The translations under genes and the position numbers were made by a program. Below are positions 40,821-62,497 of a DNA stretch of 64,000 nucleotides, in pieces. The stretch is taken from NCBI GenBank assembly GCA_036971615.1, contig JAYKKR010000002.1, positions 992,001 to 1,056,000 on the forward strand, written 5' to 3'. This DNA is from Amyloporia xantha. Lineage: Eukaryota > Basidiomycota > Agaricomycetes > Polyporales > Adustoporiaceae. Below the pieces are notes generated by a model. The model had not been told where the DNA came from and made no database searches. It saw nothing but the letters and a program-made list of their open reading frames with translations. Positions within the stretch are counted from its first letter, which is position 1. Each line of letters begins with the position of its first letter.

Positions 40821-40879
40821 CATTATAGCCTAATGACTAGGGAGAGATATGGGTGATATTTTCCCTACAGTGTAAGGAG

Positions 40880-41225: not shown

Positions 41226-42183
41226 GTGCCATCATTTCATGCTTCATTGCACTACATCCTTGCCTTTCCTATGCATCATTTATCCTCCATTGCAATCTGC
41301 CATCAACTGTGCCATTTGTATGTATTTCAGAGAATATTTTTCTATTTGTCAAGTCATATATTACATTGCGCTGTTGGCAAATATCGACAAAATAGAATGT
41401 ACAGATGGCGCGCTTGCCATCAGCGTCGCTATGAGTGGCGCCCTTGTGAAACTCGTATTGGGTCACATATTTCATGTACGGAAAGCTAAGGGCATTTGAA
41501 CTGGATCTACCCGCCTACCAGCATCTAATACATATTCTCGCCCAAGACACGCGCAGAGACTGGGCCATCTTATATGTGTCCTTCAAAGGATCCAGCTGTC
41601 TGGACGCTTTGTGGCACACATATCCAATGGCCATCTCCAGCGGCAGCATGCGCTATGGAACCATGGCACCACCATGTCCAGACGCGCTATGCAACCATGC
41701 GCCATGTACCTTGCCTGCCACATTGTGAGGCGTATGGCACGCAGATGTTATGATGTGCTGGCGCTGTTGGACTGGGCCATTTCATCCTTGCTACCCTGGG
41801 TCACCCAGAGGAATCAAATCACCGTCCACGTTTTGAGAGTACCCCTGATGCCGATGGACAAATCAGCTGCATCTGGAGTACTCATTGCGCGGAGGGCAAC
41901 TCGATTCCACTGGTGAACGTAGAGAGCAAGGAGTTAATGGGTTTATCCAACAGCGCCTTGCATGAATCCCGCATCCATGCAGACCATAACTTTGAAACTC
42001 ATGTTAGAGAGTCAGACTCCAGACAGGAAGACTTGACTTATGTTCCTCCGAGCCGCATACCTGTGGCTCAGAAGGACATAAGTCAAATGGGCCTTGACCG
42101 GCGGCAACGGGTGCCATCCAATGGCAAAGTGCATGCACACTGATGCTCGCTGTTGGGAGATGGAGCTATGGCTCGCCAGACAG
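41226..42183. other. Left flank of the composite mobile element, non-coding
   Basis: The sequence changes around 41500 from AT-rich to the GGCG-rich composition found again at 43831-44728 and 51085-58136, suggesting that these pieces once were contiguous. It contains the hairpin at 42033-42086. I see no supported gene. Confidence 0.4.
42033..42086. repeat. Hairpin with conserved loop GCATACCTGT
   Basis: The arms TTGACTTATG...GAGCC and GGCTC...CATAAGTCAA pair over about 22 bp around the ten-base loop. The same stem-loop, with different outer arms but the same loop and inner AGCC/GGCT stem, recurs at 43838-43893. Confidence 0.75.
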
Positions 42184-43830
42184 CATCAGGAAAAACACTT
42201 TTGCTCTAGGTTCACCTGGGTCACTCTGGCAGACCTGAGATTTCTCAGGTTGTCTCAGGTCATCTCAGGTTACCCCAGGTCAACTTGGGTGGCTTTGAGG
42301 TTTTTTGACATCTCTCTTACTCAATGATTTTGTGTAATTTTGCACTCTGAACCATGTCATAATATTTGCAGACAGTTTGGTATATATATGTATCCAACCA
42401 TTTACACCAAATGTAGTTGTTTGTCAATTGAATGCTAAGCCATTCACTTTACCAGTAGTGAGAACTATTACTAACAAATATATCATAGAATATGAGCAGT
42501 ATGAAGACAGAACAATTTTTCTCCACCAGCAATCTGTGCTTAAGCCGTCTGGGAGTAGAATTGTTCTCACAATAGAGAATACAAGTGGACAAATAGTTAC
42601 TATGAAAAAGAGCAATGGTAAGGTGGTATTGACACAGTATAGCACTTAGAATATGTATTCTGTACATTCTAATTAATACAAAAGTCCAGAGCCAGCCTGA
42701 GGGATAGAATGAGCAATATTGAGGTAACAGAGGCTTTAAATGTAAGAAATGAGCGTGTTATGATGCACTGGTTAAAGGTCATGTGACCTTCCATATAAGG
42801 AAGCGTGCCCCGGCACGCTTCCTTATTCGGAAGGTCACATGACATTCACATGATCTGCCACGTCTTCATTCCACAGCAGTCACTGCGCTCATTTCTCTTC
42901 TAACTCCTTCACTCTCGCCTTTGCTGTCCTGCTGTCACTTCTACTTTGGCTCCCTCTGGTCTATTTATCTCTTCTCTAATCTTCTGGGTGCTCATCTGGT
43001 CTGTTGCCTTACTTATACTATCTAAGCTATCTCTGGGCTGGCATGAGGAGTAACACTTCACAGGACTGGTTGGATGCTGTTGACCTGAAAGGCGATATGT
43101 GTGTGTCTTCTTTCTTTATCTCCAACTATAGTCTTACTTATCAGTACTGACTATAGCCATACAGTGACAACACAAAGTAAGTCTACTCATCTTTTCAATG
43201 CTGATGCTGATGTATCACAGTGCATGACAGATATTACTTGTACTCAGTGTGCACGCTCTCTCTGTGAGAAGTTGTAGCAATTGGTGAGTGGACATGTCTA
43301 AGCTTATATTGATCTTCCATTCATACTTCAATCTCTCAGCTGTTCTTAAACTTCACAATTCTTTTCACCATCTGCCTATGCTCCAATTCTGTCTGAGATT
43401 GTAATGTGAGTAACTCTGTTTCTTTGCTTTTGAAGCTCTCATTACTGAAACTTATTATATCATATTGATAGTAATGAATGGTAAGTATCTTGCATATTTC
43501 TCCTTCTAGTATTTCACAAATATATGTTACATTTATTTGTGTCACATCTGTATTGTATTATATCTGAATATATTTATATGCTGTCTTTCATAAGTGTGAA
43601 ATGAAGTGATTCCAAGGATATTGAGACTGAAATATGGTATATCCTGAGTCAACCTAGGACTGACCTCAGGTCTGACTCAGGTCAACCTGGGTTCCAAAAC
43701 CTAAATAACTTTTCTCTGAGAGCAACCTGGGTTGCTCTGAGTGCTCTGAGTACTCTGGGTGCTCTGAGTGCCCTAGGGCAGCCTAGGTCACTCCTAGGTC
43801 AACCTAGGGCAAAAGGGGTTTTTCCTGATG
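42184..43830. mobile_element. TIR element, CATCAGGAAAAA family, 1647 bp
   Basis: Left end CATCAGGAAAAACACTTTTG and the reverse complement of the right end CATCAGGAAAAACCCCTTTT form a terminal inverted repeat that continues for about 35 bp with few mismatches. Both ends are followed by runs of CTCTGAG/CTCAGGT/CCTAGGTCA motifs. The element is flanked by the dinucleotide AG on both sides (42182-42183 and 43831-43832), a likely 2-bp target duplication. A 90-codon frame at 42377-42649 is unrecognised. A large palindrome lies at 42778-42843. Confidence 0.8.
42778..42843. repeat. 66-bp near-perfect palindrome
   Basis: The arms begin GTCATGTGACCTTCC and end GGAAGGTCACATGAC; about 31 of 33 positions pair, with only CATATAAGG/CCTTATTCG mismatched in the middle of the arm. 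It lies inside the TIR element, roughly a third of the way in. Confidence 0.85.
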
Positions 43831-43837
43831 AGGGCGC

Positions 43838-43893
43838 CTTCATCTATGGTCTTCAGAGCCGCATACCTGTGGCTCCGAAGGTCATAGATGAAG
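43838..43893. repeat. Second hairpin with loop GCATACCTGT
   Basis: The arms CTTCATCTATGG...AGAGCC and GGCTCC...CATAGATGAAG pair over about 22 bp around the same ten-base loop as 42033-42086. Only the TIR element separates the two hairpins in the presumed original arrangement. Confidence 0.75.
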
Positions 43894-43974
43894 CCGCCTC
43901 GTTCAGCGGCAATATGCGCCATCCGATGGCGCCGTGCATGGCGCACACAGGCGTGGCACATGGTGTGCAGCCGG

Positions 43975-44440
43975 CATGATGTGCTCGCATTCTCGACCTG
44001 CACGATTCTTCAATGCTACCCTGGATCAAAGCATCTGAATCGAATCGCCATCCAACCATTGTTGGATGGCCATCTGATTCAGCCGCTTGAATACCAAGGA
44101 CATTGAAGGATTGGCTGGCGCAAAAGGACGTCATGCCTTCATGCTCTCACTGTGCAGACGCAACGAATACATACACCACCTGGAAACACCCACCTTTGAC
44201 ATGGCACGACGTCCAAAAAGCATGATTTGCTGGTGTCCTCGAGCTGGGCCATTTGTCAATGCTACCCGGAAGTTAAGCGTCTGAATTGCATCGCCATCCA
44301 CATGATTGGATGGTAATGTGATTCAGCCACTTAAATACGAGGTCCATTGAACGAATGGCAGACACTGGGGACGTCATGCACTCGTGCTCATACAGGGAGT
44401 GACAAGAAATACATACACAACCAGACGAGACCCACCTGTG
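43975..44440 (+). repeat. 246-bp direct repeat, two copies, each with a palindrome
   Basis: The string CAATGCTACC recurs at 44011 and 44257 (246 bp apart), and the following 230 bp align with about 80 percent identity by eye. Each copy contains a palindrome built on CTGAAT..ATCGCCATCC and GGATGG...GATTCAG (44035-44082, arms about 22 bp, and 44281-44326, less perfect). A weaker related stretch occurs near 41780. Confidence 0.7.
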
Positions 44441-44730
44441 AGATGGTGCTAGGAGACAGTACCCCACTCCTCATCTGGCAAAAGCACCTCCCTGTATCCA
44501 TCCAGAATCCTGGAGATCTCGTCTGCGTCTTGATGGCGGTTCTCGACAAAGCGTGTGGCGAGCTTCTCGACCTCTTCCAAACGAGTGAGGACTGCGCTCA
44601 TGTTGCCGTAGTCAATCCGATAGGTGTCTCTGTGACGCTATCCAAATAGTAACACCAGGAATGTGTCAGCATGTCACATACAACTAGAAGAGCGGGCACT
44701 CACTCTGTCAACCAGTGGACACTTCCACCA

Positions 44731-46769
44731 CATCAGGAAAAACATATTTGGTACTAGGACACTCTAGGACTGTCCTAGAGTGTCCTAGAGCACTCAGAGC
44801 ACTCAGAGTGCTCAGAGTGCTCAGAGTGTCCCAGGTCGCCCTCAGACAAACTCCTTCTAGGTCAAATTCCTGAGAGCATCTCAGAGTTCCTCCAGAGTAT
44901 ATCTGAATTACTCTGAAAGCACACTCAAAGATATATGTATTGCTCTTAGATTGTCTCAGAATTACACAGAATCATTCAGATTATTTCATAATAATTGAGA
45001 TATATTTATAAATCAAAACAAATGTATATTATTCTAATACTACAGAAGGCAACTATCAATGGGGATAGTAAGTTGATGTCTGTCAAATAGTATACAAATA
45101 CTCACTGTAACCATATCATATATACAGTCTATAAAACTGAAGGAGATTAGAATAATTATGAATACTTCTGTCAGTTAATACATTATTTCCGCATCTGCAA
45201 AAACATACCATCAAAATTCCATGACTCCTAGTGCATATCTGGAATGAATAGCAGAAGCCTAGATACTGTCCAATTTATGAAAAGATGACAGTATGTCTGA
45301 TGTGGCATGAACTCACCTTAAATTCTCAGACAGTGCTGGAGGTCTAAATACAGTCTAGGATGACATGTCATTAGTATACCCAGCAAGACAATACACTCAC
45401 TTTGATAACAATGGTAGAACAGAATAGAGACTAGTTTTACAACTGTAGCAGTGGAGGTTATCTGAAAGAGAGAACAGAGAATTTGCAGGTGATCTAGTAC
45501 AGACTCACATAAACCATGTCCCACAAGCCTCCAGATAAACCATTGTCCACCAAGTATAAGCCAAGCCTGTTGGAGACGGTGAACTCACCAGCATTCAAAA
45601 GGAACAACAGAAGTCACATAGAGACACCAGAGAACAGACAGAAAGGCCAGCTGTAGTCTCAATAAGAGTATATCAGAATGTAGTAAGTATAGGCACAAGT
45701 TAGAGATGTACACAGAGGAGAGGCAGGAGCTGACTTCAACAATGGTGATGGTACAAGGAGAGAACGCACATGTTGCTTTGTGACGTGTCAAACATGGGCC
45801 AAATAAAAGCCAAACATTGGCCAAACATCCAAACAGTACAGGCTGTCGCGACAGCCTGTATACCATTTAAGGTAATAATGACCTTCTTCACTCAGATTGG
45901 CATTTTCACTCTAATATCTGTCTGCCTTCTACTTTAATGTCTCATTCCCAAGCATTTTTGCATAGCTATCATCACACTTACTATTAGTGGCCTACACTCT
46001 TCTTAGGTCATTTTTATTGCTGAATTAAAATATTCTCTTCAGAAATATAGGAATACCTTACCCTGATTGAGAGCTGGAATGACTGATATACTAATTGGCT
46101 CAGAGTGTTGTACAATAGCAACCCAAGCTATCTCTGAACTTCTCTGAGAAAACTTGAATAATTTTATAATGTCACTAGCATCTCAAAGCAAAGTTCTAAA
46201 TCAAGTTGGAGAATAAGTATTTGTCTATTCAATAATCTAATATTGACAACTCTATTTTAAAGCATACAAGAACACTGACACTCACCTACCTCTCTACCTC
46301 AATAAGGTCCAATCAAATCATGATGTGATCATTATTGAATTTCCCTCAATGTAGCCTATAAATCACAGTGCTAGTGCAAGAGCATACTGTAGAATATCAT
46401 AGAAAGAAGTGAACATAGATATCAAAAATGGAACTAATAGAGTCATTAATTGTTTTCTATCTAATCAATGTGACTCAATCAATACAGGAAGATAGAACTA
46501 AGAAATATCAGCAATTTATCAAGTATTATAAACTTAAACTGATTTATATACATGTCAGACTGTCCAATCACAACTTGAATATAATCTTCCAAATTCTAAA
46601 GCACCTCAAAGAGATAAAGGATAGCCTGTGATGCTCTGAAATTATCTGAATATCTCAGAGCAACTCAGAGCAATCAAAGATGACCTGGGATGCTCTGGGA
46701 CTACCTGAGACAACCTGACAAATCTCATATATCTCAGAGTGTCTCAGGGAAAAAGTGTTTTTCCTGATG
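44731..46769. mobile_element. TIR element, CATCAGGAAAAA family, 2039 bp, inside gene X
   Basis: The ends CATCAGGAAAAACATATTT and (reverse complement) CATCAGGAAAAACACTTTT face each other and are followed by CTCTGAG/CTCAGAG-rich subterminal runs. The flanking dinucleotide CA occurs on both sides (44729-44730 and 46770-46771). Removing the element and one CA leaves the gene X frame continuous. The internal AT-rich part has no recognisable coding. A perfect 22-bp palindrome lies at 45838-45859. Confidence 0.85.
45838..45859. repeat. Perfect 22-bp palindrome
   Basis: ACAGGCTGTCG followed by its exact reverse complement, with no loop, within the TIR element at 44731-46769. Confidence 0.85.
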
Positions 46770-46891
46770 CACGATGGAAGGTTGCTGGGAGGGACATCAG
46801 GCCAAGTCCACCATGCAGGGTCAGTGTCCGTATGGAGTTGCTGAAGCTGTGGCGATGGCGGCGCAGGAAGCGGTGTGTAAGGCAAGATATT

Positions 46892-49800
46892 CATCAGGAA
46901 AAACCATATTAGTCCCAGGCTGCTCTAAGAGCATCCAAGAGCATCCTAGAGACTTCAGAGTATTCAAAGTACTCAGAGTAGCCAGAGTGCTCTTAAACTT
47001 AGTTGACATGAGATTTTTTTCTCAGAGTAACCCAGAGTAACCTGAAAGAAGCCTGAGAGTGCTCTTAGATGACCCTATGTAGTCTTTTTTCATCTCTCAC
47101 ATCTCATTATAGTTTGTATCAGAGCACTCTCAAGGTTACAGTATTTATAATAGAACATAGCAGTATATTCACAAATAATATACACACAAAAGATAATCTA
47201 ATACTAGCAGCCATAATAATTACATACAATGAAATAGCTCAAGACAGAAATGTCCATATCACCAAACTAATGTTGTTACTCAGTATACAGTAATATAAAA
47301 TGCAAAGCTGAAAGACGTACACAAGATCTATAAAATATTCTGTAGTGTGGCCAATATATATGAGAATCTAACAGACGAATTCAGATAAAGTCCAATTAGC
47401 TGAAGAAGCAAGACAAAGTACTCACATAAATTGTCTTGTCACAGTAAACTGAAGCTGAATGGCATAGGTGATAATACTCTAAGAATTTACAAAGAGTCAA
47501 CAAAGGGATGGAGATAGAAGTGAATGACTTACACGATATGGACATAATCAAAATTACAGTTCATCTTGTGGCAAGCATCTATAGATACAATTCTTTAGTT
47601 TGGCTTAGAAATGGAGGAGGAAAATAATGACTTACATGTCAGAGATATTCTCATCAAAACCTCAGACAGCCACTCACCATTCATCACAACTCCTCAGAAG
47701 GGACGAGATGATTTATGCAACTAAGTGCACGCCATCTGTCATATATAATGGACACGTCAACTGGCAAGAATGTCAGAGATAGACTTACCTTACTTTTTGA
47801 TTGTATGATGACAGCCAAGAGCCAGCTTTCAATGTCGGAGATTTGGATTGTGATTAGAGATAGAAACAGTGTTAGTGTCTCCTAAGTTCAGTTCGGTTCG
47901 GTTCGGCAGGTATTTTGGCCGAACCCCGAACCGAACCTGCATGCATATGCCCGAACCTGAACCTGAACCTGAACTGAACCTGCTGAACTGGTTCGGCAGG
48001 TTCAGTTCAGGTTCGGAACTGGTTCGGCAGGTTCAGTTCAGGTTCGGAACTGGTTCGAACCTTCCGAACCTCTAATTGTTTAAATTAAAATGTTTTATTC
48101 ATTTCATGCTATGCTACTGTACAGTCCATGGCTTTTCTGGCCTTTTCTAGTCTACAGACACTGCCCCAAGTCAGACACCTCATGCATGCAGCCATCTGTG
48201 CATACTTGCACGGTCAGGGGTGTTAGGGTGATGAGAAGAAACCACGATGAGCACAGGTGCTTACCAGAAGAGAGTCCGGCGGCTGCCAAGGGCCGCATCG
48301 AACAGCTGTACCTCGCCTTCAGAGTGGTACCAGTCGGCTGCATCCTGACACTGTGCGTTTCGAGCCCGCACCTGGGGAGTTCGCGCTCAGCGTGGACCCT
48401 CCTATCAGATCGGCGCTTGTGGGCGGCGCGTCTGCGGCGCAAGGTCAGTCGTTGTCAGCAGGAGCGGCGGCGGCATGGCACACCTGTAGGGGCCCTGCTG
48501 CTACTACCGGCGCCCGAGCTTGATGCCGCCGAGCGCGGTGTCGTTTTCCTTGCCTAGCGTTGGCTGCACAAAGAACGCGCGGATACCGAATGTATCCGCG
48601 TCGCTCTGCGTTACCTTCCACGTAGGCTTCCAAACGCGCGTGCCGGCGACGCGCAGCGTGGGGGTTTTGTTCGCAAGTCATGCTGCTGGCAGAACAAGGC
48701 GTTAGGAGCATGTGAAAAAAAGCCATGGAGCGTGCGCACTTACCAGCACGGGGTTCCACGCCTGTCAAGTCTGCGGAAGTATCAGCTTCTTTGGAAGCTG
48801 ATACAGGCGCCGCGTGCAGCGGCTGGTCCTCGCCTTCAGATTCGAACCAATCGATGTCGGCGGCGTCCTTCAGTTGGCCATCCACGCCAAGGGCGCAGTT
48901 CTCGCTGGGGTCGAGTTCGGCCATAGTGTAGCTAGAGGGAGGGCGAGAGCGCAAACTTGCGCGAACGAAAATTGGTGCTGGCGGCGCGCCGATGGATCGC
49001 GATCTGATCGATCGATGTTCCCAATTAGGTTCGCGGTTCGGACGCGTTCGCGCCGCGTTCGGCTCGCGCCCTGCAACCTAGAACCGCGGACCGAACCTGG
49101 CACCTAGCGGCCGGACCGAACCTGGACCGGACCTGAACCGTAGGTCCGGTTCACCGGTTCGGGGTTCGGACCTAGGTTCAGGACCGAACTTAGGAGACGC
49201 TAAACAGTGTCAGTTATTCATAGATACAGATGAGAATAAAAAGAAGATATAGACTTACCTGTGGCCGCAATAAGCAGTGACTCATATGCCCTGCCAGCAC
49301 ATCGTCATACCTGAGGAAGAACCAGTGAGAGAGACAGCAACAGATTACTAGAAGTCACCAAATATAGGCCAGAGATGAGAAGAATACCATGAGTGAACAG
49401 AAACAAGCAGAAATGTGAAGTGGCATGAAAGAAGATGAAGCAAGGTGGGTGTTGAGGAAGAAGAGAAAGAACGACCATGAGTGCCTAATTTGGGTGTCAG
49501 TCTGTCGCGTCAAACTGACACCTGTTCTGGGAACCCTGGATTAGGGTCAGCAGGGACTTAGACGTATTTGCACTTCTCCTCAGCAATTCTTTCTTGCTGC
49601 TACCTTCCTATATCTATGCTCTTTGCTGTCTTGGATCTCACAAACTGTTGACTAGGGACTCTGACTCAGTATCTATGGCTTTTGGGCATCTCTTTTCCAC
49701 TGGAGCTTCAGTGAGCACAGATGGTTGCTCTGTGCCTGCTCTGCGCTATATAGGAATTTCTGTGAGTAATCCTTCTCTCTTTCTTATTTCCTATTCTTGG

Positions 49801-51084
49801 AGAATAGTCTCAGGACTGTCTAAGCATGCTGGGTGGAGTTTGGAAGGAGATTTGGAGGGGTTGGAGGGTTGGAGATGGAATGGGCGCTTTTTTGAGGTTT
49901 TGATCAGAGGATAACTGGGGATCCATTGTGAGTTATTATTTTGCTTTTATACCATTCTATTCGCATTGTCAAGCCCTTCCAGACGAGCCCTTGCTCATCC
50001 AAATCCGTCCACTACTTTGTCTTCTATTGCTGTTTTTCATCAAAAACTTCGTCTTGTCCATATCTCAGGAACCCATGGATGGTTTCCTTTGATTGTTGGA
50101 TAGAATGAAAGCCCTAATTGCAGGCTTTCAGACGATATATACATTTGTGGGTCTGCATCCAGTGGTGTTTGTTCTATGGTTGCATGTTGAACGACCTCCT
50201 CCTCATTCTCCTATTCCTCACATACACCTTTTCTATCCCTTCCTGTACTAACTCATTACATTTTTCAACTATCTGACACTCCTTTATTTCCCTATTCATT
50301 TAGCTGCAGCCTCTTTCCTTGGCCAGAGGCTGTATTTTCAATACTGTGAGACGTCTTATCCCATTTCACCTCAGACCTTTGATCTCTGACTTTTGACTGT
50401 CCACTGTCAGTGGAAGGAAGTATTGGTGGATGCTTGGAGTATAAATGAGAGGAGAGATGAATGTGTGCAGAAGCACAGAGGTGAGTACACATATTATGCC
50501 CCTACTTCTATTCACTTCTAATACAAGTACACTCTTTTCAAGTTTATACTACTCAGTACCTGTATCATCCTTCTTTCTCTCTCCATTATATTCCTGCTAT
50601 TCAATAGCCTTTTGTGCTTATTCTGTATAAATTTATATGTCCCATATTCAATATTTCCATTTTTATTAGTACAGCAGCTCACCTTCACATGTATTTAAGC
50701 TAAATAATCTTAATATAACACAGAAAGTGAAGAGAATGATAGTGAATATAGGATACTATAGTTATTTTATAGCCAGTGGAAAATGTAGCTCAAATAATGC
50801 ATATTAGAGATGCCAGCAATTTATTATACAAGCCAGTGAGAATACAGTCTATTTACATATTATACTGTTCAGAATAATGTATTGTAGCTTTAGAAATATA
50901 CTACAGTTTCCCAAAGAAACAAAAGCTAGCCTAGGATGCTCTGAGAAATTTAAAATATCTCAGAGCAACTCAGAGCAACTCAGGTCAACCTGAAATGCTC
51001 TGAGATAACCTGAGTTACTCTGAGAAAACTCATATATCTCAGAGCACCCTAGGTTACCCCAGAGAAAAAGTGTTTTTCCTGATG
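46892..51084. mobile_element. TIR element, CATCAGGAAAAA family, 4193 bp, inside gene X, with nested hAT
   Basis: The ends CATCAGGAAAAACCATATT and (reverse complement) CATCAGGAAAAACACTTTT delimit the element. TT flanks both sides (46890-46891 and 51085-51086). Subterminal CTCAGAG/CTCTGAG and CCTAGG runs are like those of its relatives. Without the nested hAT insertion it is about 2.86 kb. I found no transposase in it, so it is non-autonomous or decayed. Removing it with one TT restores ATG AAT ATC reading in gene X. Confidence 0.85.
47873..49202 (-). mobile_element. Non-autonomous hAT element, 1330 bp, with 8-bp target duplication
   Basis: The termini TAGTGTCTCCTAAGTTCAG (left) and TAGCGTCTCCTAAGTTCGG (right, reverse complement) are flanked by AACAGTGT on both sides (47865-47872 and 49203-49210), the exact 8-bp duplication expected for hAT. 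The left side keeps the subterminal GGTTCGG arms and a trace of the transposase C-terminus. The right side keeps a minus-strand start frame from 48921 (MAELDPSENCALGVDG, DAADIDWFESEGEDQPLHAA), with a duplicated variant of the WFESEGE block (WYHSEGEVQLFDAA) near 48310. The catalytic body is missing, so this is an internally deleted copy that lies within the TIR element at 46892-51084. Confidence 0.9.
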
Positions 51085-51567
51085 TTCATGACGTCGATCC
51101 TGGAGATGGCGCCGAATGTGGTAGCGTCGATGATCTTCTGGACCACATCCGGCAGCTCGACGTCGGTGACGCCAACGAGTGCGAGGCGGCCAAGACAGTT
51201 GCGGATGGTGTCCTGTTGATGGCGTCCTGTTAGCCGTCAGTGCAGATGTATTGGTGTGACGATTTCGAAATGGTACCATTTCCATACGAAGCCCGATCTC
51301 CCACCTCACCAACGTGAGGTCAATGGCGACATTGCTGGTTAGATTGGCGCAAGCTGTCCGCACCATGGTGATAGCCTGTTCGCAGCACCAGGAGTAGTAC
51401 ACAACAAGATGGCGATTGATAGCGATGAGGTTGGCGACGGATTCGGCGCGATTAGCAAAAGCGGGAGCCATTGTGATGTGGGTTGTGAATGGGTAAAATA
51501 GCGTGATCTGCGGGCTGCATTTGAGCAGTGGATGGGGGATCGGGTGATCGCCTTGAGGGAAGGTCAT

Positions 51568-51744
51568 GGTGAAGATCCGTCACAGATAAGCATCGGCAAA
51601 TTACCTGCAGATGATCACGTGTATAAGATCCATTATTGATAAGACATCATGAGGAAGGGGCGTGAGAGTTTCTCATTCAGTATGAAAAGGAAGCTGTCAT
51701 GGATCACAATAAGGCAATTGTCATCTATCCGCGGTGATTCAGTC
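51568..51744. promoter_or_regulatory. Shared intergenic region of gene X and the KDZ transposase
   Basis: Only 177 bp separate the two divergent start codons, so any promoter elements are likely shared. I see no clear TATA box. The assignment is positional only. Confidence 0.35.
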
Positions 51745-54700
51745 ATGGCGCGCACCAAGAAGCAAGACGTCAGTGGCGATGCAATGTTCGTGCGGCACAA
51801 AGAGCGGCGAACTGCAAGAGGTGCCGTAACTTACGTTCCAGAAGAAATACCGATTCCACACGCATCGCTGCAGGTCGCAGATGCCAGATCTCCATCAAAG
51901 TCCCCCTCTAAAGCCGCATCTCATGATCAATATTCGGAGCCGCTGCAGGAACATGTGGTGTTCGACAATGTGATGCCGATGAGGAGTCTGCACAAGGTGA
52001 GCTCTGTCGCCATATTTGGGCTGTTCAATGTGAAGGCTGAAAGCGAGCCAGTCGCAGAACGACTTTATGCGAGAATGGCTTCCTCTTTGAGAAGAGTACC
52101 TAAGTCATATCATTGAGCTAGAAGCGCCGCCTGGAGAGAGGCGATGCTGCAAATGCGCTGGTCCGCATGGCGATTGGCGCTGCTTGGAATGCTTTGGGCG
52201 CCCTGTGTACTGCGCGCAGATTGCCTCCAACTGACACATCGCCGCATGCCGCTGCATTGGGTGGAGAAGTGGGCTGACAGATTCTTCGAGCCGGCATGGC
52301 TTCGTGAGGTAGGGGTCGCAATGCATTTGGGCCACGATGGCAAACCATGTGTATACGCGGAGAGACCTATTATGGGGCACCACGCCGGGGTAGAAGATGA
52401 TGGCGAGGAAGATGATGTCAGCGATGCCAGGGATAATGATGGCAATGAAGGGTCGGCGCCACCTGACGTGCCATCGCCGCCTAGCTACTACAGCAACGAC
52501 ACGATGACCATAGTCAATGTAACCAGCATCCATAAACTTGATGTTGCGTGGTGTCAGTGCGAGAATCGGGCTACCCCTGATGTGCAGCTACTGGACATGG
52601 GGCTGTATCCTGGAAGTACCAAGCGACTGCGCACTGCGTTCACATTTCGGGTGTTGGATGACTTTTTGCTCACCAACAAGGAATGCAAAACCTCGGGGAT
52701 GAATTACTACAGCAAGCTTCGGCGTGTTACCAACTCTGCGTTCCCGCATTCAGTTCAGGTAGGTCGCCATTGTCATATCATTGTGCGTTTGCGTTCACAA
52801 GGGCATAGGATTGCTACAGGGAACTCCTGCGAGTGTTGCACCAGTGGCGAAACCTCAAATATCGCAAATGGCATGGATATGGCCATGGCACCACCAATGC
52901 CATACCCGCCGGTGGCCTCGCTTTGGGGTGCCCAGCATGTTCCAAGCCTGGCGTTAATCTTGCCTCAGGATGGCGTGATGACCCTGTACAGTAAGCCATG
53001 TAAGACTTTTGTTGAGCGCCATGTGTAACGCGACAGCAGATGGAAGTACATGAGGAGCATCGTAATGGACGGCAATTTTAGCGCGGAGCATCTCAAGATG
53101 CGTCGCCCAGAGGACGATGTCATTCTCAGTGATGGCGACGCTTTCATGGTGGGCGACGACACCTACAAGAAGCATCTCGCTGTTGCCATCGAGCATAAAG
53201 AGGTCTGCGATCGACTCCTAGTGGATGAACTGTTGGACACTCATAGCCTATGTAGAAATCCTTCTGTCACGATCATCGCGCCATCAACCAGGCAAATGCA
53301 GATCGCCATAACCTTGAAGCCACGGGGATTGGCGCCGCGGCCTGTGCACGCCATGGGTTTTTCATGCCGCATGCGGTGGTTGATTTCCAGAAAGGTGAGA
53401 GGTAAGTGGTTTGCTATTTCCTTTGGTCACTTACACCCACCATCAGACAGATGAACATGGATTACGTGCTGAGCGAGGTGCTCGCCACCATGGCAGGTAT
53501 CCAGGTGCTGCTGGTGATGTATGACATCATGTGTCAATACGGCATCAATCTCATGAAGCGGTTTGGGGAGAGTGAGTATTTGCACATGCCACTGAACGTG
53601 GAGATATGGCGCAGAATAGGCCTGTTTCATGTCCACAGCCATCAAGACACATGCTTTCCTCGCTACTCACCCAACTTCATTCCTGGTGCTGGTCAGATTG
53701 ATGGCAAAGTGATTGAAACCCTTTGGGCGCCGTTGAATCTCATTTCGGGTAGCACACGCGGCATGACCACGGCACATTGAAAGGAAGTCATCGACAATCA
53801 CATGAATGATTCCAACTGGAAGAAGCTCACAGGTATTGGTAGGTGGTCATCGCGATAGGTAAATGTGGAGACATTCATCGCCATCCGACAGCGGCCACAC
53901 ATGTTAGAAAGTGGCGCAAGGCCAAAACGGGGGCTACTGAGAGCGCACAAGTTTTGGAGTATATGGAGCGGTCCAGCACAGAAGAGCAGCTGCAAGAGTG
54001 GCGGGATGCAGAAGCCGAAGCGCTGGCCATTCGCACAGAGACCATCAGCGCCATGGACATTTTTGACGTCAAAATGAAGAAGGGTGAGAAATAACATTTG
54101 GCTCAACGTTGATGAGTACTCAATATAAACAGCGCCTAGCCGAATGGCCATCCAACTCCAGCTGACCCAAAAGGAGACTACACAAGGGCGCCATCAGGGG
54201 GTGGCTGCATGGATCGCTACTGGAATGAAGATCCAGGAGCTGCAGTAAGTCTACATGGCGTGCTATACTCACTTGAATCTCACAGAACATTGACAGATTG
54301 GGGATTAGCCAGCTCAAGCGCAAGATGGGCCGCCATCCACTGCTGGTTGACCGCCTTACGCTAGAGGAGTGGCGCCAACGACTTCACAAGAGAATAGCGG
54401 CATTTCAATTGAAAGCTACATCCTATCTACCAGTCCTCTTTGAGGATGACCGCGACGGTCCTGGAATCACTTATGATGGCGCCGAATGGGATGTGCTGGA
54501 AGAAGACGTCAATCCGTTGGAGGAAATGTTTCCCGGGGAAGTGGAATCAGGAATACAACCTGAGAACGCCATTATATCGTTGCCTTCACAGCTTGGCTAT
54601 GACGTCATCTTGGCCACTAACCTGGAGGACATAGCGGCTGAGGAGCTAAGCTTGCGAGTGGGTCAAGCCAACGACGCGCTTCATCAGATTCGCCTCGCCA

Positions 54701-55317
54701 TCGGCTACAAGTCAGTGCTGTTTCGGACAGCGGTGCGCCATGTGAAAAGCCAACGCCAAAAGCTCAGGTCTTGGGATGAAGTGATAGCAACACAACGAAC
54801 CGTGTTGGAAAATGTATGCATATACACTCAAAGCAGGCTCGCCATCCTGGCCCTCAATCCCGATGACCATATCCGGGCACGGTTCCAAGCCATCCAACAC
54901 GTGGATCTCAAAGCCATCACCGCCATGCTAGATAATTCAATTCGTGGGTCCCGGCAGGAGACGCTATCTTGGATATGGACCGTGGACATTGAAGGTGATA
55001 CTGCGCAATCAAATTGGTTGACAGAGTGTGAGTGACATGTCCACGTCTGATTGGCATGGTGTCCTGATTTACATGGACAAGTACATTGCGTGAACTGGTT
55101 GCGCGCCAAATCTCGGAAAGACAGATGGGCCGAGGACTTGGTTATGGTCCAGGCGGAGATGGAGTGGACAGTGGCCAGCTTTCACCACAAGGCGGACGAA
55201 TGGTGCTCGCGTCTGATCGGGCCTCCTGGCCATGTATGCTACGCGCGCCGTCAGGTGGCACTCTGGACTGGGATGGCGGATCATGCCGCTGCTCACTTCG
55301 CCAAGTGTGAGGCGTGA
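51745..55317 (+). pseudogene. KDZ transposase with CxC2 cluster, second lineage, decayed
   Basis: The start MARTKKQDVSGDAMFVRHKE leads through an intron to NDFMREWLPL, TGA (52088-52090), EEYLSHIIELEAPPGE and the CxC2 cluster RRCCKCAGPHGDWRCLECFG then VYCAQ. A frameshift near 52215 follows, then HRRMPLHWVEKWADRFF. Later blocks are KYRKWHGYGHGTTNAIPAGG, LGCPACSKPGVNLASGWRDD, the catalytic VMDGNFSAEHLKMRRPEDDV, ACARHGFFMPHAVVDFQKGE, MYDIMCQYGINLMKRFG and GAGQIDGKVIETLWAPLN, where Lys stands in place of the Glu seen in the other copy (TDGEAIERLW). A TGA (53778-53780) ends that frame, followed by the helical C-terminal region (54298-55035) and VNWLRAKSRKDRWAEDLVMV to the stop at 55317. At least two nonsense codons and one frameshift mean that it is not functional. 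It is the transposase of the composite element. Confidence 0.88.
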
Positions 55318-55358
55318 TCGGTGATATGTACTGAGATTGTATTTGTTGTTACATTGGC

Positions 55359-56673
55359 TTATAACTCTAACAAAAACCCCACTCCATCCAATGAGGTGCC
55401 TTTATGTTTCATCGATGCATGCACCGAATCCCTCATGAAGTAAGCATAGCATACGCACTCACCATTGCATGGCTGAATGCCATGCCGTAGAAGCTTGCCA
55501 CACAATGCCACAACACTGCCAGGCCTGTAGTCTATCATCACGTTGGGCCCATCGAGCTCCATCTCTAATGGGCCATAATTACCCACCGTAGTCAGCAGAT
55601 CAAACCACTCTTTTCTGGAGTTCTTGTCGCGATGTAGCGGAGTGGCGCGATTGCTTATGACTTGAACGCCGTTGAATATGGACGACCACTTGTTCACTAT
55701 ATCTTTGTGGTCCAGGCCACACGACAGCGTTCTAATGCATGTGCGACCTGCAGCGTAAAGGTCGGGATGCATGATAGACATCATAGCAGAGAGGATGGCC
55801 ACTGAATCACAGATGGCGCTCAACCACCGCCATCCACTCTCGCCATCCCGGCCGCACAAGCTGGTTGAAGGTTCCACAGGATCGCAAGGGCCCTACCGAT
55901 ATGCGCTGCGATCAGCGACGCAGTGCAGTCACAACCAATGCGACCTACGGTATGTCCAAGGGCATGCCATCCTGGAGACAGATTGACCGTCCCTGGGGGG
56001 ATGGCGCACTCTGATGGACGGCGGAAGTATTTGATGTCGTTTCTCCAATTTCCTCCGCATGCTTTGCGCATGAGCTGCGTGGATAGGTGGGTCGTCGCTG
56101 TGCGTATTTCCCTCTGCAGCCATTCCACAATGAGTATCTCGAAAGGAGGATGGGTGGACAGGCCCACCTGACGATCGGCGTGAAGCAATCCAGGAAGGAT
56201 CCACACTAGTATTCTTGAGTGCTGGTCCACCAACACACAGGGTTCATCGAGTACCACAGTCTTATCTTCAACTAGAGGCTTCCACCTCGCCTTCAGTTGT
56301 TTCTCCAGTCTCACATTCTGCCCTGTGTTGCCCACCCCTATGGAGTCGGAATAGCGATCAATATCCCATGCCAAGCGTACTAGCTTAACGGTCAGTGTGA
56401 TGCTTCAGGGCTCACTAGCACTCGCAATGACGCACCAGGTCTGATATAGGCTTGAGCGAGCTGGTGAGCGATATCACTGCATTCTATGACAAAGTCTGCC
56501 CGGACATGAGTAGGAGGCTGTGGTTGCCTCAGTGGGCCTGGACCATCCGGCAGCTTGTGCAGCCAATACTGAAACATATCTCGCATACAGGCTGCCAATG
56601 TGTCGCTCAAGTCGAGGCCGCTGGGTGATATCATGGCAAGGAATATGAGGGTATTTTGCCATGCACTCCCCAT
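55359..56673 (-). CDS. TET/JBP-family 2-oxoglutarate/Fe(II) dioxygenase, 408 aa
   Basis: Three minus-strand exons, 56673-56416, 56383-55949 and 55892-55359, join in frame (1227 nt). The introns are 32 and 56 nt. Exon 2 contains IPPGTVNLSPGWHALGH. Exon 3 contains SGWRWLSAICDSVAILSAMM and then the dioxygenase core: VISNRATPLHRDKNSRKEWF with the HxD iron-binding pair, GPNVMIDYRPGSVVALCGKL, the distal histidine in LLRHGIQPCNGE, and CVCYAYFMRDSVH with the Arg expected to bind 2-oxoglutarate. In this family 5-methylcytosine (or thymine in JBP) is oxidised. Fungal members are known to lie next to KDZ transposons, and here the stop is 41 bp from the convergent KDZ stop. All key residues are present, so it may be active. 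The 32-nt first intron is unusually short and could instead mark a deletion. Confidence 0.82.
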
Positions 56674-56981
56674 TGTATATTACTAGCAGGACCTAACGCC
56701 TGTCGACCATGCTGCAACAGCATTGTCTACTGCTGTTACGACTGCACGCATGTTTGTCGATCGCTTCCCTTCTTGATCGCAAGGGCCTGAAGGATCTCGT
56801 GCGGCCGATCGGCATTGTGTGATCCGGTGATCGGCTACCATTGTTGATCTGCGGACCGCCATCCCCGAGCATGCCGCCATCATGCCGCCTGAGCTGCCAC
56901 CGTGCTTCCCAAGCAAGCCATAGGCATGCCGCGGGTGAATTCCCCCGGGATTTCTGCTTTCAGTGAGCGTGATCAGGTTGA
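56674..56981. promoter_or_regulatory. Divergent intergenic region of the TET/JBP and HMG-like genes
   Basis: About 300 bp lie between the two divergent starts. GATC is strikingly frequent between about 56755 and 56855, with at least seven occurrences in roughly 100 bp. A role in regulation is inferred from position only. An alternative upstream start for the right-hand gene (ATG near 56929, MPRVNSPGISAFSE) cannot be excluded. Confidence 0.35.
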
Positions 56982-59900
56982 GTGACAGCCATCAGCGGAG
57001 TTGGAGCACGGAAGCAAAGTAGTGCAAGGAGACAGACATGGCTTTGGCAACCTCCTCTGAACAGTGCTGAGGTGTCCATCTTCCTCAACACATCTGGAAA
57101 TTCTGTGGGCTACGACATGGGATTATCCATCATTCAGGCATATCTAGACAAGATCCCTGATCAAATAGAGGAATGGCGACATGCACAAGGAACAGCAAGA
57201 GCACCCATCCTTGAGTCCGCTGTCATGATTCTCATGGAACATTTCTCGGAGCTGGAGGATAGGGCTGTACTGAAAAAGGTCAAATCTTGTGTTATCTCAA
57301 AGCATGGCCATCATGATTCACAGCTTCCCATAGGTACTGGGTACCTATTTCAGCAACCACTTCCAGACTTTCCTTGCCAAATCCACCCGCCCTCCCAAGA
57401 AGAAACAGTCGGCGAGGGAGATGTTTCAGGCGGAAAAGAGTGCAATGATAAGACAAGTGACAGATGAAAGGACAAATGGAGCAGGAGTGTCGAACAAAGA
57501 CATAGGGATATACACCTCTGTCGTCACTGAGCTCTTTGGCCAACTCAGCGATGAGGCCAAGGCAAAATATCAGGAGAAGGCAGATCTGTTCAATGGGAAT
57601 GCCAAGCAGTTGAAGGCGGGATCATCAAAGTGAGTGTTGGCAGTTTGCGCTCTTAGGAAATGACTGACAGTGACCAAGAAAAGCAGACAAGGAGCTGATT
57701 CCGTTTTTGAGGGATTTTGCGTATGATGTCTACCGGCACCATGGGGTGAGGATCTTCACACTGAGCAGCTACAAAAACGAAAAAGGAAGGGTGGTGATAC
57801 AGGAGTAGGAACTTGTCGCACGCATGTTGACATTTGCGCTAACAGCCTCTTATAGACACAACTTCAATGACGAGATGGAGGGAGGAAGCGCCTTTTGCAA
57901 GGTGGACGACTGGCACACCGACACCATGGTGAAATGGGCAAAGTACAGCACTCAAGCATTTGAGCTTGATGTCAACGGTAGTGTAGATGAGCCACAGGCA
58001 ACATCCGGTGACACATATCGGGAGCTGCCACTCGACGATGGCGGCTTACCGTTGATACCGCCATTGGATGGCGACAACCCGCCATCATTGGGCGCAATGA
58101 AGTCCATGATTTGGGAGCTTCTCACCATTTACTATAGTACGTGACTTGGTGGGAGCGGGCCAATAAATGGCAGGACGATTCCTGAGGATTTTGAAGTGCT
58201 GTCTTCCATTATTGCCCCACAAGGTTCAATAATATAAGATTTTCATTACAATTGGACCACTTGCCTCTGATTACTCTTCAGACACTGACTTTACAAACTT
58301 ATAGAGACAATCTGATGGCTGTGAAAACTAATCCCAATAAGTGTAGCAATCTACTATATTAACTTTGCAAGCACATGGCAACAGTCATAGAAACAGACTG
58401 CAAAGATATTACAAAAATTGAAACTGGATCTTGATACAGGTGTATGTCAGTGAATATTGAGAGTCTCAATACAAACATTACAACATTTCTAAGTGAGTTC
58501 TGTCTGATGGAGTGTAAAAGTGATTTTGACCTTAACTCATTAGAAACTCTTGTAGTGTCATTAGAACATTTACTTACAAAGTGAACATTCTCTATCAAAT
58601 GAGCCTACTATGTATTTTCACATTTTGTAATGGCATTACAAACTCACTCTAATGAGAGTACAAAGTCATCCTAATGATTACATCAGCTTGCTCTTGACCA
58701 TACAAACTTGCTTTTGAGATCATACATATTCACTCTAACTGCAATGCAAACCTGCTCAGGCTATAACAATGCTATTTATCAACCAAATCTTACAACAGCC
58801 ATATCTCAGTAAGTATTGAGAATTCCAATACAAACATTACAACTTTTCCTAATGAAGTAAGTAGGTTCTATCTGATGGAATATAAAAGTGATTTTCCACA
58901 CTAACCACATACAAACCTTTCTAATGACATTACAACATTTACTTATCAAGTCAATCTTGCCTTTCAAATGGGACCATTATGTATTTCACCTATTTTGTAA
59001 TGACATTACAAATTTGCTCTAATTGCCATTTGAAAGTCATATCAGACACCTTTGCATTCAAAGTCAGTGTAATGACCATACATATTTGCTCTAATGGCAC
59101 TACAAACTCACTGGAATCACCACACAAACTCATCATACTAAGCATACAAACTTATCCTAATTATCATTCAAATGTATTGTATTGACCCTACAAAGTCACC
59201 ATAAGTATCATACAAACCTACACTAATCACCATTCAAACTGACTCTAATGATTATATAAAGTTACTCTAGTATCACTACAAGCTCACCCTAATCACCATA
59301 GAATCATATTGTATTGACTATACAAGTCACTCTAATGATCATATAAACTCAATGTAATCACCATACAAACTTACTCTAATCACCATACAAACTTACTCTA
59401 ATACCCATACAAAGTGATCATAATGACCATACAAACTTACTCTAATAACCATACAAATCCATTCTAATCATCATACAAACTGACTCTAATTATCATAGAA
59501 AGTCATTCTAATCTCCATACAAACTTGCTCTAATCACTATACAAACTCACTCTAATCCACATACAAAGTTGCTCTAATGACCCTACAAACTATGTCTAAT
59601 TATCATACAAAGTCACTCCAATCACCATAGAAATGTATTGTACTGATACTACAAACTTGCTCTAATCACCATACAAATTCACTCTAACAATCATACAAAC
59701 TCACTACAATTACCATACAAACCTAGTTCAATCAGCATACAATGTCGCACCAATCACCATTCAAGTCATTCTAGGGGTCATACAAACCTGCTCTAAATAC
59801 AGCATAAAGCTCTCTAAGGTCCTTACAAACATGCTCTAATGATATCCATATAGCAGGCTTACAATGAAGTCTATAAAGAACAGATAAAGCCGTGGTTACA

Positions 59901-62149
59901 GGCTTGCGCTTGAAGCGCATTTTTGGGCGCCTAAAAAGTGGCTGACACTCGGAAAGGCAATGATCATTGAATAGCAGATTTGTTATGGCCTCAAATCCTT
60001 AGGAACTTGAATGGGAGATAGATACACTATAGTCCAAGGTCTGTACCAACTTTCAGCCAATTTAATTAAGAATTGAAGCCACAGGAAAGTGCGCTTTTTT
60101 CCATTTCCGGCAATTCCCGTGGGCGTCTACGGGCGCGTAGGGCGATCCACTGGAACGGATCGCCCTATGCGCACTTAGAATTTTCGCACTTTGGGGTCAT
60201 GTGACTGCTTTTTCTGCTCTTTGGAGGCTCATGCTGGGCTCATTCTGGGCTCATAAAAGGTGCAAAAGTCACCTAAAATAAGGGAATGTCTTTCTCCTTC
60301 ATTTGGAATCCCTATCTCGCATTTTTCACATCTCACATACAGCCATATTTCCGCATTTGGGCATGTTTGTATTGGCTCTACTGGCCAAGCAAAAATAGCA
60401 ATAAATCCAGGAAAATCAAGACCAATATGGATGTCACTGTGGCTACCTGCTGATGTAAGCATTTTCTCATGACTCACTATCTGACAGATCTGCTCTTTCC
60501 CTCTGACGACAACCATCTCAAGTGCAGGTGAGCTTTACACAGCAAAAGTGAGTGCAGCCCTCTTCTGTGTACCTCTAAGCTCATTACAAACAGGCTCTAA
60601 TGGTATCTATAGAGAATGAAATCTATAAAGAATCGATAAAAGGCCTGTATTGGAGAGCGCTCTTGGGCGCTTAAAGGGCGCCTAAAGCTCAAAAAGGCAA
60701 TGACCGTTGAATAGCATATTCGTTATGGCCTCAAATCCTTAGATCTTTGAATGGGAGATGGATATACAATAGTCCAAGGTGTGTACCAATTTTCAGCCAA
60801 TTTAATTAAGAATTGAAGCCACAGAAAAGTGCGCTTTTTTCCATTTCCGGCAATTCCGTGGGTGTCTACGGCGCATAGGGCGATCCACTGGAACGGATCG
60901 CCCTATGCGCACTTAGAATTTTCGCACTTTGGGGTCATGTGACTGCTTTTTCTGCTCTTGAGAGGCTCATGCTGGGCTCATTCTGGGCTCAAACAATGCG
61001 TGAAAATCACCTAAAATAAGGGAATGTCTTTCTGCTTCATTTGGAATCCCTATCTCACATTTTTCAAATCTCACATACAGCCATATTTCCGCATTTGGGC
61101 AAGTGTATATTGGGGCTATAGACTACAAACAAATACTAACAAATCTCAAAAAATAGGAGACAGCCTTTCGACAGCCATGGCTACCCCCTGATGTAAGCAT
61201 TTCCTTATATGGAAATATTGGAATGTGGTCAATCCAACAGTATACCCACTTCAAAGGCCAGTAGGCCGCTGATCTGTCACATGTCCAAGGATAAGCACAC
61301 GTGATTAGGCACATGATCTAATCATGTGACATACCATACAAGGACATAGATAAGATATGGGCTGGATCTTATCTCATCAATGTTGGGGGTTGTTTGTACA
61401 AGTCGCGTCGTGCTGGCAGGTTTGTATTGAACTTTGTAATGGGTAACAAACTTTTGTATTGAGGCTACAAGGGACCTTACAACAGCAGTAACAAAAGCCT
61501 GACCCTAACCCCAGGATCTTGGGTGCTTACAATACAAAATTTGTATTGAATTGGGTTCCCACGCTTAGGGCGCAAAAGTTGGTGTCGCGACTTTTGCTCA
61601 CCAGAGAAACGCTTCCTTCGTACCTCAGGAATCGTAATAATGCACATGGCGCTCATGGCGAGACTGATGGCGCACACATTAGAGCGGGCAGCGGGGAACA
61701 ACCAGGAGAAATGCCCATGGCGCGCGCTGAAGGTCCGTGGTTCACAGTTCATCGATTCAGGAATGGTGCCCGCCGACTTTGAGTTTGATGACCCATCGCA
61801 CATGGTCCGGAGGGACATAGTCGGCGTGCTTCAACATTGGAGAGCCACCCAAGAAGCCAACAAAGGCCAGTGCACCTTTCGCTTTAAGGCGTGCCTGAAA
61901 ACGCGTGGTGACGAGAACTCTCAACTTATTCCTGCACTCTATAATGAGCCAAAAGTGGGCAAGGGAAAGACGGTGGCGAGGAAGAAGCAGACAAATGCTC
62001 AAAAGAAGAAGGGAAAGGCCAAAGTTGCCAAACCCACCGCAACTGATGACAGTAGTAGTATGGATGAGGACAGCTCGTCGGAAGGGGAGGTGTTCAAATT
62101 TGGCAACACAACAACACACCAACTTATGTATACCTGGTGCACCAAATAG
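56982..62149 (+). CDS. Uncharacterised basidiomycete protein with HMG-like segment, 514 aa, across a giant intron
   Basis: Exons 56982-57278, 57334-57629, 57679-57804, 57856-58136 and 61605-62149 join in frame (1545 nt). The N-terminal half has a helix-rich segment ending VLGTYFSNHFQTF, a basic linker (KSTRPPKKKQ), then SAREMFQAEKSAMIRQ, GIYTSVVTELFGQLSDEAKA and KYQEKADLFNGNAKQL, which resembles an HMG-box-like fold (inference). Next come VYRHHGVRIFTLSSYKNEKG, HNFNDEMEGGSAFCKVDDWH and TMVKWAKYSTQAF. The last exon has MAHTLERAAGNNQEKCPWRA, FIDSGMVPADFEFDDPSHM, and a Lys-rich then Ser/Asp/Glu-rich tail. This layout is common in proteins of unknown function in transposon-rich Agaricomycetes. The 3.47-kb fourth intron holds another insertion; an alternative acceptor at 61628 also keeps the frame. 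The first exon and start are the least certain parts. Confidence 0.65.
58560..59860 (+). repeat. Array of 21-24-bp imperfect repeats, CTCTAAT..CCATACAAAC
   Basis: More than 40 imperfect copies of a unit with the consensus ACTCTAATNACCATACAAAC follow one another, most regularly at 59340-59720. Unit length varies between about 20 and 26 bp. Confidence 0.8.
59870..61195 (+). repeat. Duplicated 600-700-bp segment, copies 738 bp apart
   Basis: From the AAAGCCTATAAAG-like region onward two long copies align. Common landmarks such as GGCGATCCACTGGAACGG occur at 60141 and 60879, exactly 738 bp apart, and identity extends over at least 500 bp. Each carries a palindrome; in the second copy (60870-60909) the 16-bp arms GCGCATAGGGCGATCC pair perfectly around an eight-base loop. 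Confidence 0.85.
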
Positions 62150-62497
62150 CGGATAAGCCCCCAGACCCGTTATGCACCAGGCAGGCTATCTGCCTGCACC
62201 CTGGTGCATCATTTGCAGGGCCTTTGCCGGGCCCTCCGGGGCCTCCTAGCTCTCGCTGTAGGGCCACCCCGGCATCACGGCATCTTCCCTAATGTGGCAG
62301 GTATCTGTTCCGTAAGCCCTGGGCTATTTATCATATAACAGAATGGGTATTTCAGGGGTTTTAGGCTCACATAAATCATACAAAATTCAATAAAATGTAT
62401 TTTATTATTCCAGTACCTACAAACTACACAGGAATAGAAATCTATATAGATTGGGCATATGATCACCCTTCAATGTGGGCTGATCGGCAGCGCCAAG
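62150..62497. other. Right flank of the HMG-like gene with hairpins
   Basis: Immediately after the stop there are nested short inverted repeats around 62175-62210 (TGCACCAGG...CCTGGTGCA enclosing GCAGGCTATCTGCCTGC) and GC-rich inverted motifs near 62215-62250. They could be a terminator-like or terminal structure of the composite element. No TIR match to the left flank was found. Confidence 0.4.

Follow-up and report, generated by a model that had tools for sequence, protein, structure and literature searches.

A worn Kyakuja-like KDZ transposon with a TET/JBP gene in Amyloporia xantha, and the family-specific CpG words that may address its putative anti-silencing module

A 64,000-nt stretch of the Amyloporia xantha contig JAYKKR010000002.1 (hereafter the window) holds four neighbouring genes, X (-), KDZ transposase (+), TET/JBP dioxygenase (-) and HMG-like (+), whose order and strands proved to be as an earlier note on this DNA had given them, with Pfam identifying the second as a KDZ protein with a CxC2 cluster (CxC2, expectation value [E] 4e-25; KDZ, E 2e-22) and the third as Tet_JBP (E 4e-15). 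Searches of the genome (one fungal assembly, 46.8 Mb in 60 contigs) revealed that these genes are the left part of a transposon of ~18 kb and that, along the stretches read and in coding DNA as well, short CpG-containing words are densely repeated: ATGGCG in the window's own family (A) and in a related family (B), CCGCGAC in two further families (C and D). Three intact A copies in the same genome (17,977, 17,924 and 17,920 bp) start and end with identical bases, and all three are flanked by perfect 7-bp target duplications (TAGTCTC, ATCTCGT and CGGCCAG), so that the element ends and duplications which the earlier note had left to be sought are now in hand. The left terminus is identical in four copies, that of the window included. 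The termini, GAGCCC...GGTGTG, form an imperfect terminal inverted repeat, and the intact copies carry at both ends arrays of an 86-bp repeat (~0.6-0.8 kb) that are inverted relative to each other. Compared with the copy designated C34, the window copy is present as the pieces 40808-42183, 43831-44731, 46770-46894, 51081-58144 (97.1% identical) and 61633-62116, and matches resume beyond the window (numbering from its start) at ~65024-68226 and 70973-71878. The element thus starts at 40808 and continues in pieces to at least 71878, the limit of the sequence compared, and does not span 41500-62150 as first proposed. The window copy is worn, with an extra in-frame stop in the KDZ gene relative to C34 and with CpG losses.

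Six genes could be read in the intact copies, with the strand alternating from one to the next: X (-), KDZ (+), TET (-), HMG-like (+), gene 5 (-) and gene 6 (+), which form three divergent pairs; the two pairs described for the window are both present, but at least two more genes belong with them, and the earlier note had noticed neither these, nor where the element really ends, nor the words spread along it. Two gene limits also moved: X does not end at 51049, its further exons (46770-46894 and 44449-44731) being set apart by two nested insertions, and the HMG gene continues outside the window instead of ending near 62150. The gene models were drawn up manually on a single copy, with GT-AG introns as the guide; those of KDZ, TET, gene 5 and gene 6 are incomplete, and towards the end of HMG exon 2 a small indel distinguishes the copies. 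When aligned to the structures 8jkk and 7vpn, the element TET retains HxD (as HRD), the downstream H and the equivalent of Asp337, while the equivalent of Gly331 is Ser; it therefore has both features by which AG-type TET/JBP enzymes are recognised, the HxD...H iron triad and an Asp at the position of CcTET Asp337, and Ser is allowed beside Gly at 331 in such enzymes (Kojima 2025, PMC12730594, main text).

The HMG assignment is marginal by sequence, as HMG_box_2 scores below the Pfam cut-off (E 0.0093; 17.1 bits versus 22.4) and the top match in PDB sequences is an H2B (E 1e-4). By structure, too, the proposed identity is tentative: an AlphaFold2 model (predicted local distance difference test [pLDDT] 71) finds HMG-box entries as its first 34 Foldseek matches, with H2B from rank 35, though these matches are weak (probability up to 1.00, E 0.06 or worse, template-modelling score ~0.5). 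Several KDZ elements reportedly encode additional proteins, among them one with a divergent HMG domain. Gene 5 encodes six cysteines in the spacing of Zn(II)2Cys6 clusters (C-x2-C-x6-C-x5-12-C-x2-C-x6-8-C), kept in A and B, and farther on a stretch that looks coiled-coil-like by eye; the gene 6 product is Pro-rich. The X product (copy C34) contains no Pfam domain, and no homologues of the X and HMG proteins were found among 5.8 billion proteins, a collection whose fungal coverage is uncertain and which is therefore silent on their rarity. Between A and B the ratio of nonsynonymous to synonymous substitution rates (dN/dS) is 0.27 for X (175 codons), 0.23 for KDZ (824), 0.07 for TET (246), 0.21 for HMG (625), 0.47 for gene 5 (264) and 0.16 for gene 6 (60), every value lying below 1 with a dS that is high for several genes (up to 2.2). 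These ratios indicate that X and the HMG gene are selected parts of the element. In families D and C we observed two X-like stretches rather than one (loci L051, ~469-991 and 2000-2266, and L053, ~472-921 and 2052-2264).

The same gene order recurs throughout this genome. A KDZ match lies within 4 kb of at least 74 of 114 TET matches, a lower bound because 150 of the 174 KDZ matches were used, and the two genes are arranged tail to tail in 74/74 cases. Among the matches listed (of 190), a TET match stands divergent to the HMG gene, at most 7 kb away, in 54 of 60 loci (the other six have none), and among those listed for X (of 218; merged into loci by hand) a divergent KDZ match lies within 4.5 kb of 48 of 77 loci. 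X and the HMG gene are hence repeatedly syntenic with KDZ and TET, and this linkage, together with the intact copies with their ends and duplications, rules out the chance assembly that the earlier note had set against its own proposal. The earlier note's claim of a single mobile unit made up of the four genes is strongly supported by many copies in the same order, three of them with exact ends and 7-bp duplications. We also considered X as a free-standing host gene and rejected this, since, where X has no divergent KDZ match on the list (29 loci), 15 loci sit in arrays on contigs C16, C24 and C39 (14 are elsewhere) and the one C16 unit that was read (L055+L056) is an internal-deletion derivative of the element, in which X, the side with gene 6 and the two termini are preserved. 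The X matches in these arrays are spaced ~12.4 kb on C16 (e.g. 426167, 438629, 451106) and ~15.6 kb on C39 (e.g. 91379, 106986, 122592, 138203). Separately, 28 weak TET matches (E >1e-7, most at profile positions ~70-160) lie away from listed KDZ matches, for instance C41:136784, C37:181255 and C60:143831, and perhaps represent a second class of TET-bearing element.

DNA of the TET gene occurs at no fewer than 39 other places in the genome, 10 of them 97-98% identical (family A, three of these ten being the intact copies compared in full) and 29 at 71-72% (family B), as counted from 40 of 61 candidates scored. Two further provisional families, E and F, turned out to be the same as C (99.6% identity) and D (99.7%), respectively, so that we count four related TET-bearing families, not six; C and D are represented by ~10-kb pieces only. 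Between the two word clades, identity is 76-78% in the core of KDZ and 44-58% in its other pieces, 25-34% in the longer matches of X and 28-43% in pieces of the HMG gene in family C. An A copy and a B copy (L049/L050) are 97-99% identical at A element positions ~1002-1957, a non-coding stretch beyond gene X, compared with 75% in the main aligned block, which perhaps reflects recent exchange or capture between families. A terminal stretch shared by A and C was set aside as a common feature, for in L052 it lies outside the part common to two C-family copies and may belong to a neighbouring element; L052 contains other DNA before ~position 2,000, which inflates its ATGGCG count.

Elements of this general type have been described before, and the earlier note was correct in taking TET/JBP-KDZ linkage as established: TET-carrying Kyakuja DNA transposons with 7-bp target duplications have been described from Agaricomycetes (Kojima 2025, PMC12730594), and our element resembles them in combining a KDZ-class transposase with an AG-type TET/JBP enzyme and 7-bp duplications. 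Unlike Kyakuja-1/2_LB, which are given with CA..TG termini and no terminal inverted repeats, it has GAG...GTG termini, of which only TG fits, and an imperfect inverted repeat; the long inverted subterminal arrays, the size of ~18 kb and the six genes also go beyond the description in that paper's main text, in which a word search (main text alone, the sequence-bearing supplements lying outside it) found neither HMG nor "dispersed" nor "subterminal". We therefore call the element Kyakuja-like by the length of its duplication, its assignment within KDZ being tentative. Cryptococcus KDZ1-3 are likewise large KDZ transposons with a CxC cluster and long terminal inverted repeats, shown to be mobile, but differ in their 8-bp (or 4-8 bp) duplications and their size of ~9-11 kb, and the part of that paper available to us describes no TET (PMC12810828). 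What is new is the element-wide words. The literature searched, most subscription journals and Kojima's supplement lying outside it, nowhere describes words of this sort for TET transposons, nor does the available portion of the Laccaria/Coprinopsis paper on oxidised methylcytosine (PMC8889193).

Within the internal 16.3 kb of an A copy, ATGGCG/CGCCAT occurs 129 times compared to 15.0 expected under a dinucleotide null and tends to extend to GATGGCGM. Family B has 104 versus 16.1 expected, with AAGGCG and ACGGCG raised too, as if position 2 were relaxed, and the word of C and D has the longer form (A)CCGCGAC(C). In the window the five element pieces contain 53 ATGGCG/CGCCAT in 9,950 bp, the nested insertions 1 in 11,359 bp and the rest 16 in 42,691 bp. 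Density in A is ~7.6 words/kb over the whole element and 5/kb in the terminal arrays; coding pieces have 8.1/kb versus 6.9 in the remainder, individual genes 7-8.5 (X, KDZ, HMG, gene 5), 4.8 (TET) and 14.0 (gene 6), and words within genes are 39 sense and 50 antisense. Their presence on both strands, at similar density in and out of genes, argues that the signal resides in DNA and not in RNA or protein. In equal pieces of 3.75 kb the z score of the top 6-mer reaches 14.7 in A, 12.0 in B, 15.2 in C and 7.9 in D, whereas seven TET-minus KDZ loci give 4.4-6.5 and the null, taken for each piece as the highest value in 40 Markov simulations, 5.7-7.2. We used raw z after discarding a bin-dispersion score that separated TET-bearing from TET-minus loci poorly, ranked one nested insertion at the top and named a different top word for D. 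Genome-wide, GGATGGCGCC is raised over its control (317 versus 59), with a TET match within 15 kb for 59 of 100 among the matches listed.

Shuffling synonymous codons in the reading-frame pieces gave far fewer words than are present, which disfavours a codon artefact. ATGGCG occurs 47 times in A versus 14.0 in the shuffles (0/500 as high) and 27 times in B versus 10.9 (0/300), and CCGCGAC 8 times in C versus 1.3 (0/300) and 9 times in D versus 1.8 (0/300). This 2.5- to 6-fold excess concerns each clade's own word only, the other clade's word staying near the null (CGCGAC 8 versus 5.7 in A, 111/500, and 3 versus 4.4 in B; ATGGCG 2 versus 2.7 in C and 3 versus 4.7 in D); the shuffles used open-frame pieces, with two TET pieces overlapping by 70 bases and gene 5 exon limits uncertain. 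The words are also retained between families, 48 of 78 ATGGCG sites from A to B versus 315 of 1129 for matched 6-mers (p 5e-9) and 20 of 30 CCGCGA sites from C to D versus 58 of 198 (p 1e-4), and in the main aligned A-B block retention is raised in coding (25/48 versus 213/761) and non-coding DNA (20/27 versus 96/318) alike. Without preselection of the word, ATGGCG is the best kept of 88 6-mers between A and B and CCGCGA of 27 between C and D (at least 12 sites each), and identity drops at the word edges, clearly for A-B and less cleanly for C-D.

The copies decay at CpG. Transitions per 1000 cells amount to 23.7 at CpGs outside words versus 1.2 at other G/C in 11 A copies (4-kb stretches) and to 5.5 versus 0.8 in 19 B copies, and the window copy has C>T/G>A changes at 246/1,921 CpG cells (word CpGs 31/206, other CpGs 215/1715) versus 42/5,323 other G/C cells. 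Dead copies that underwent CpG methylation and deamination would be expected to look like this, which suggests that the copies were methylated in life. No significant protection of word CpGs from deamination was detected in A or B, the two families tested: word and other CpGs decay alike in four long A copies (36/978 versus 265/7990, p 0.57), and the 19 B copies trend towards faster loss at words (8/906 versus 56/10130; 8.8 versus 5.5 per 1000, p 0.25). Since decay in A is no different at word CpGs than at the rest, the retention between families fits selection better than mutation and is best read as selection acting on active lineages. Taken together, the shuffles, the spread over both strands, the retention and the CpG decay disfavour the words as an artefact of codons, tandem repeats or mutation bias.

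These features point to the following reading, which we hold tentatively, at a little less than an even call: the window contains a worn copy of a ~18-kb Kyakuja-type transposon with an anti-silencing module, in which the words address TET to copies of the element's own family. The KDZ transposase would move the element, with the 7-bp duplications and the inverted 86-bp subterminal arrays as its traces, and TET would oxidise 5-methylcytosine on the element's own copies. That TET oxidises methylation around the element is plausible, since the iron-binding residues of CcTET are kept and the copies decay at CpG like methylated DNA. The X, HMG-box-like and Cys6/coiled-coil proteins could serve as DNA-binding or adaptor partners. 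The words would be protein-binding sites and, at ~7.6/kb, would act as an address bound by an element-encoded reader that directs TET, or another anti-silencing step, to the family's own copies and not to the genome at large; TET is presumably the effector that follows this reader, a CcTET-like enzyme acting on CpGs that surround the reader-bound word. Because the words differ between clades whose KDZ cores remain similar while X and HMG have diverged widely, the reader is likely a fast-evolving accessory protein. The word may thereby let the element recognise and protect its own copies. The sharper form of the proposal, a self/non-self address made of a selected, clade-specific CpG word that covers the whole element and guides reader and TET to own copies, is possible, and we state it with slightly less assurance than the reading as a whole.

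Comparable logic is known from the VANDAL transposons of Arabidopsis, which accumulate short family-specific motifs, with different motifs in related families and a transposon-borne anti-silencing activity such as we propose here (Hosaka 2017, PMC5735166; Sasaki 2023, PMC10398659). The VANDAL motifs quoted in these papers lack CpG, whereas the words here contain it. Our element differs further in its predicted effector, a TET, as VANC is instead a protein that binds the motif.

Several observations weigh against the addressing of TET by words. CpG content is not sorted by TET: the observed/expected (o/e) ratio is 0.93-1.12 in the element pieces of A, B, C and D, and TET-minus KDZ loci span 0.51-1.15 (0.23 for the one in the window), so that the ratio alone is no proof of TET action, and we rejected a high ratio as a hallmark of TET carriage. 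In the 11 A copies transitions are about half as frequent at word CpGs as at others (6/478 versus 114/4809, i.e. 12.6 versus 23.7 per 1000, p 0.15) and fewer word CpGs are polymorphic (5/44 versus 106/446, p 0.06), which may reflect weak protection in this 4-kb set. The word of D is weaker (top z 7.9 versus a null maximum of 5.9), C-to-D retention of CGCGAC is borderline (21/45 versus 57/183, p 0.055) and ACCGCGACC is barely more frequent genome-wide than its reversed control (801 versus 652). Among the TET-minus KDZ controls (L001-L007) four of seven have no match to the KDZ of A and three are at most ~41% identical; with no close TET-minus Kyakuja among them, the words may mark the Kyakuja lineage and not TET carriage. 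The Zn_clus match of gene 5 lies below the Pfam cut-off and its structure model is poor (pLDDT 54). Finally, VANC motifs lie in non-coding tandem repeats (PMC5735166, PMC10398659), whereas our words are at least as dense in coding DNA, and AG-type TETs have been speculated to act without target specificity (Kojima 2025, PMC12730594, main text).

That speculation also favours a different role for the words, as packaging or transposition sites by which the HMG, Cys6 or KDZ protein coats the element while TET acts separately and without sequence preference. The element-wide, both-strand distribution and the presence of an HMG-like gene suit this account; the terminal arrays, where transposase sites would be expected, are no richer in words than the element at large, and the clades use different words despite their similar KDZ cores. 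We consider it unlikely. Improbable, too, is a host-directed signal, in which a host factor for transcription, replication or the exclusion of methylation would keep the element's chromatin open: the words do contain CpG and the sequence specificity of the accessory proteins is unproven, but ATGGCG is sparse in the remainder of the window, and a single host factor leaves unexplained why the words of the two clades differ within the same genome. The least probable account, an ordinary TET-bearing Kyakuja with accessory genes and functionless words left by codon usage, an old tandem origin or mutation bias, can draw on the known Kyakuja elements cited above and on the part of the A words that lies in a repeat-rich non-coding stretch (10.3/kb at element positions 1001-2450), but is strained by the codon shuffles, the word-level retention, the spread over both strands at similar density in coding and other DNA, and a CpG decay that does not differ significantly in and out of words.

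The question behind these alternatives is why transposons carry TET, and whether it serves their own copies or acts everywhere. Words that look selected and run along the whole element offer a direct handle on it, open as they are to mutation, footprinting and bait experiments. Should the words address TET as we propose, targeted demethylation would have evolved at least twice in selfish DNA, the system here being a second, independently evolved sequence-specific anti-silencing system, built on active oxidation of 5-methylcytosine, and the editing of DNA methylation would gain a compact targeting module in the reader.

Table 1. Features of the element copy and of the insertions within it (window positions; o/e, observed/expected ratio)
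Feature	Position	Strand	Remarks
Left half of target duplication, putative	40801-40807	.	TTGGATA; 7-bp duplication of the window copy
Left terminus of element	40808..40830	+	imperfect inverted repeat with right terminus of intact copies, 18/23 by eye
Subterminal 86-bp repeat array	40959..41221	.	3.1 copies in the window copy
Nested insertion	42184..43830	.	ends CATCAGGAAAAAC...GTTTTTCCTGATG, PlavakaB-type termini; CpG o/e 0.17; foreign to element
Gene X	44449..51471	-	218 amino acids in copy C34; dN/dS A vs B 0.27
Gene X exon 3	44637-44449	-	
Nested insertion	44732..46769	.	ends CATCAGGAAAAAC...GTTTTTCCTGATG, PlavakaB-type; CpG o/e 0.10
Gene X exon 2	51212-51081 + 46894-46770 + 44731-44704	-	split by two insertions
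Nested insertion	46895..51080	.	CATCAGGAAAAAC...GTTTTTCCTGATG terminal type, the ends being read together with adjoining bases
Largest uninterrupted element piece	51081..58144	.	39 ATGGCG/CGCCAT words
Gene X exon 1	51471-51277	-	
KDZ transposase gene with CxC2 zinc cluster	51643..55317	+	frame open from 51643, stop placed by eye; model lacks the last exons
TET/JBP dioxygenase gene, CcTET-like	55359..56673	-	Tet_JBP match; start by eye
HMG-box-like gene, first part	56926..62116	+	continues beyond the window
HMG-like exons	56926-57018, 57072-57278, 57334-57629, 57679-57804, 57856-58136, 61683-62116	+	HMG domain in 57334-57629
Nested insertion within HMG gene	58145..61632	.	contains 22/44-bp tandem repeats

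The insertions between the element pieces are younger than the element and have CpG o/e ratios of 0.10-0.69; the CATCAGGAAAAAC...GTTTTTCCTGATG ends of three of them are of the terminal type given for PlavakaB (Kojima 2025, PMC12730594, main text). The insertion at 46895-51080 itself contains a block (~47885-49180) bounded by GAACCTGAACC-type repeats. Tandem repeats occupy window positions 59055-59764 (22/44 bp) and 62531-62974 (21/149 bp). A second KDZ element, with no TET match nearby, lies within 16001-26000 of the window (KDZ match 16941-17315); this TET-minus region is the strongly CpG-depleted one (o/e 0.23) and has repeated words of its own, GGCTCA, CTCATA and GTCTCA.

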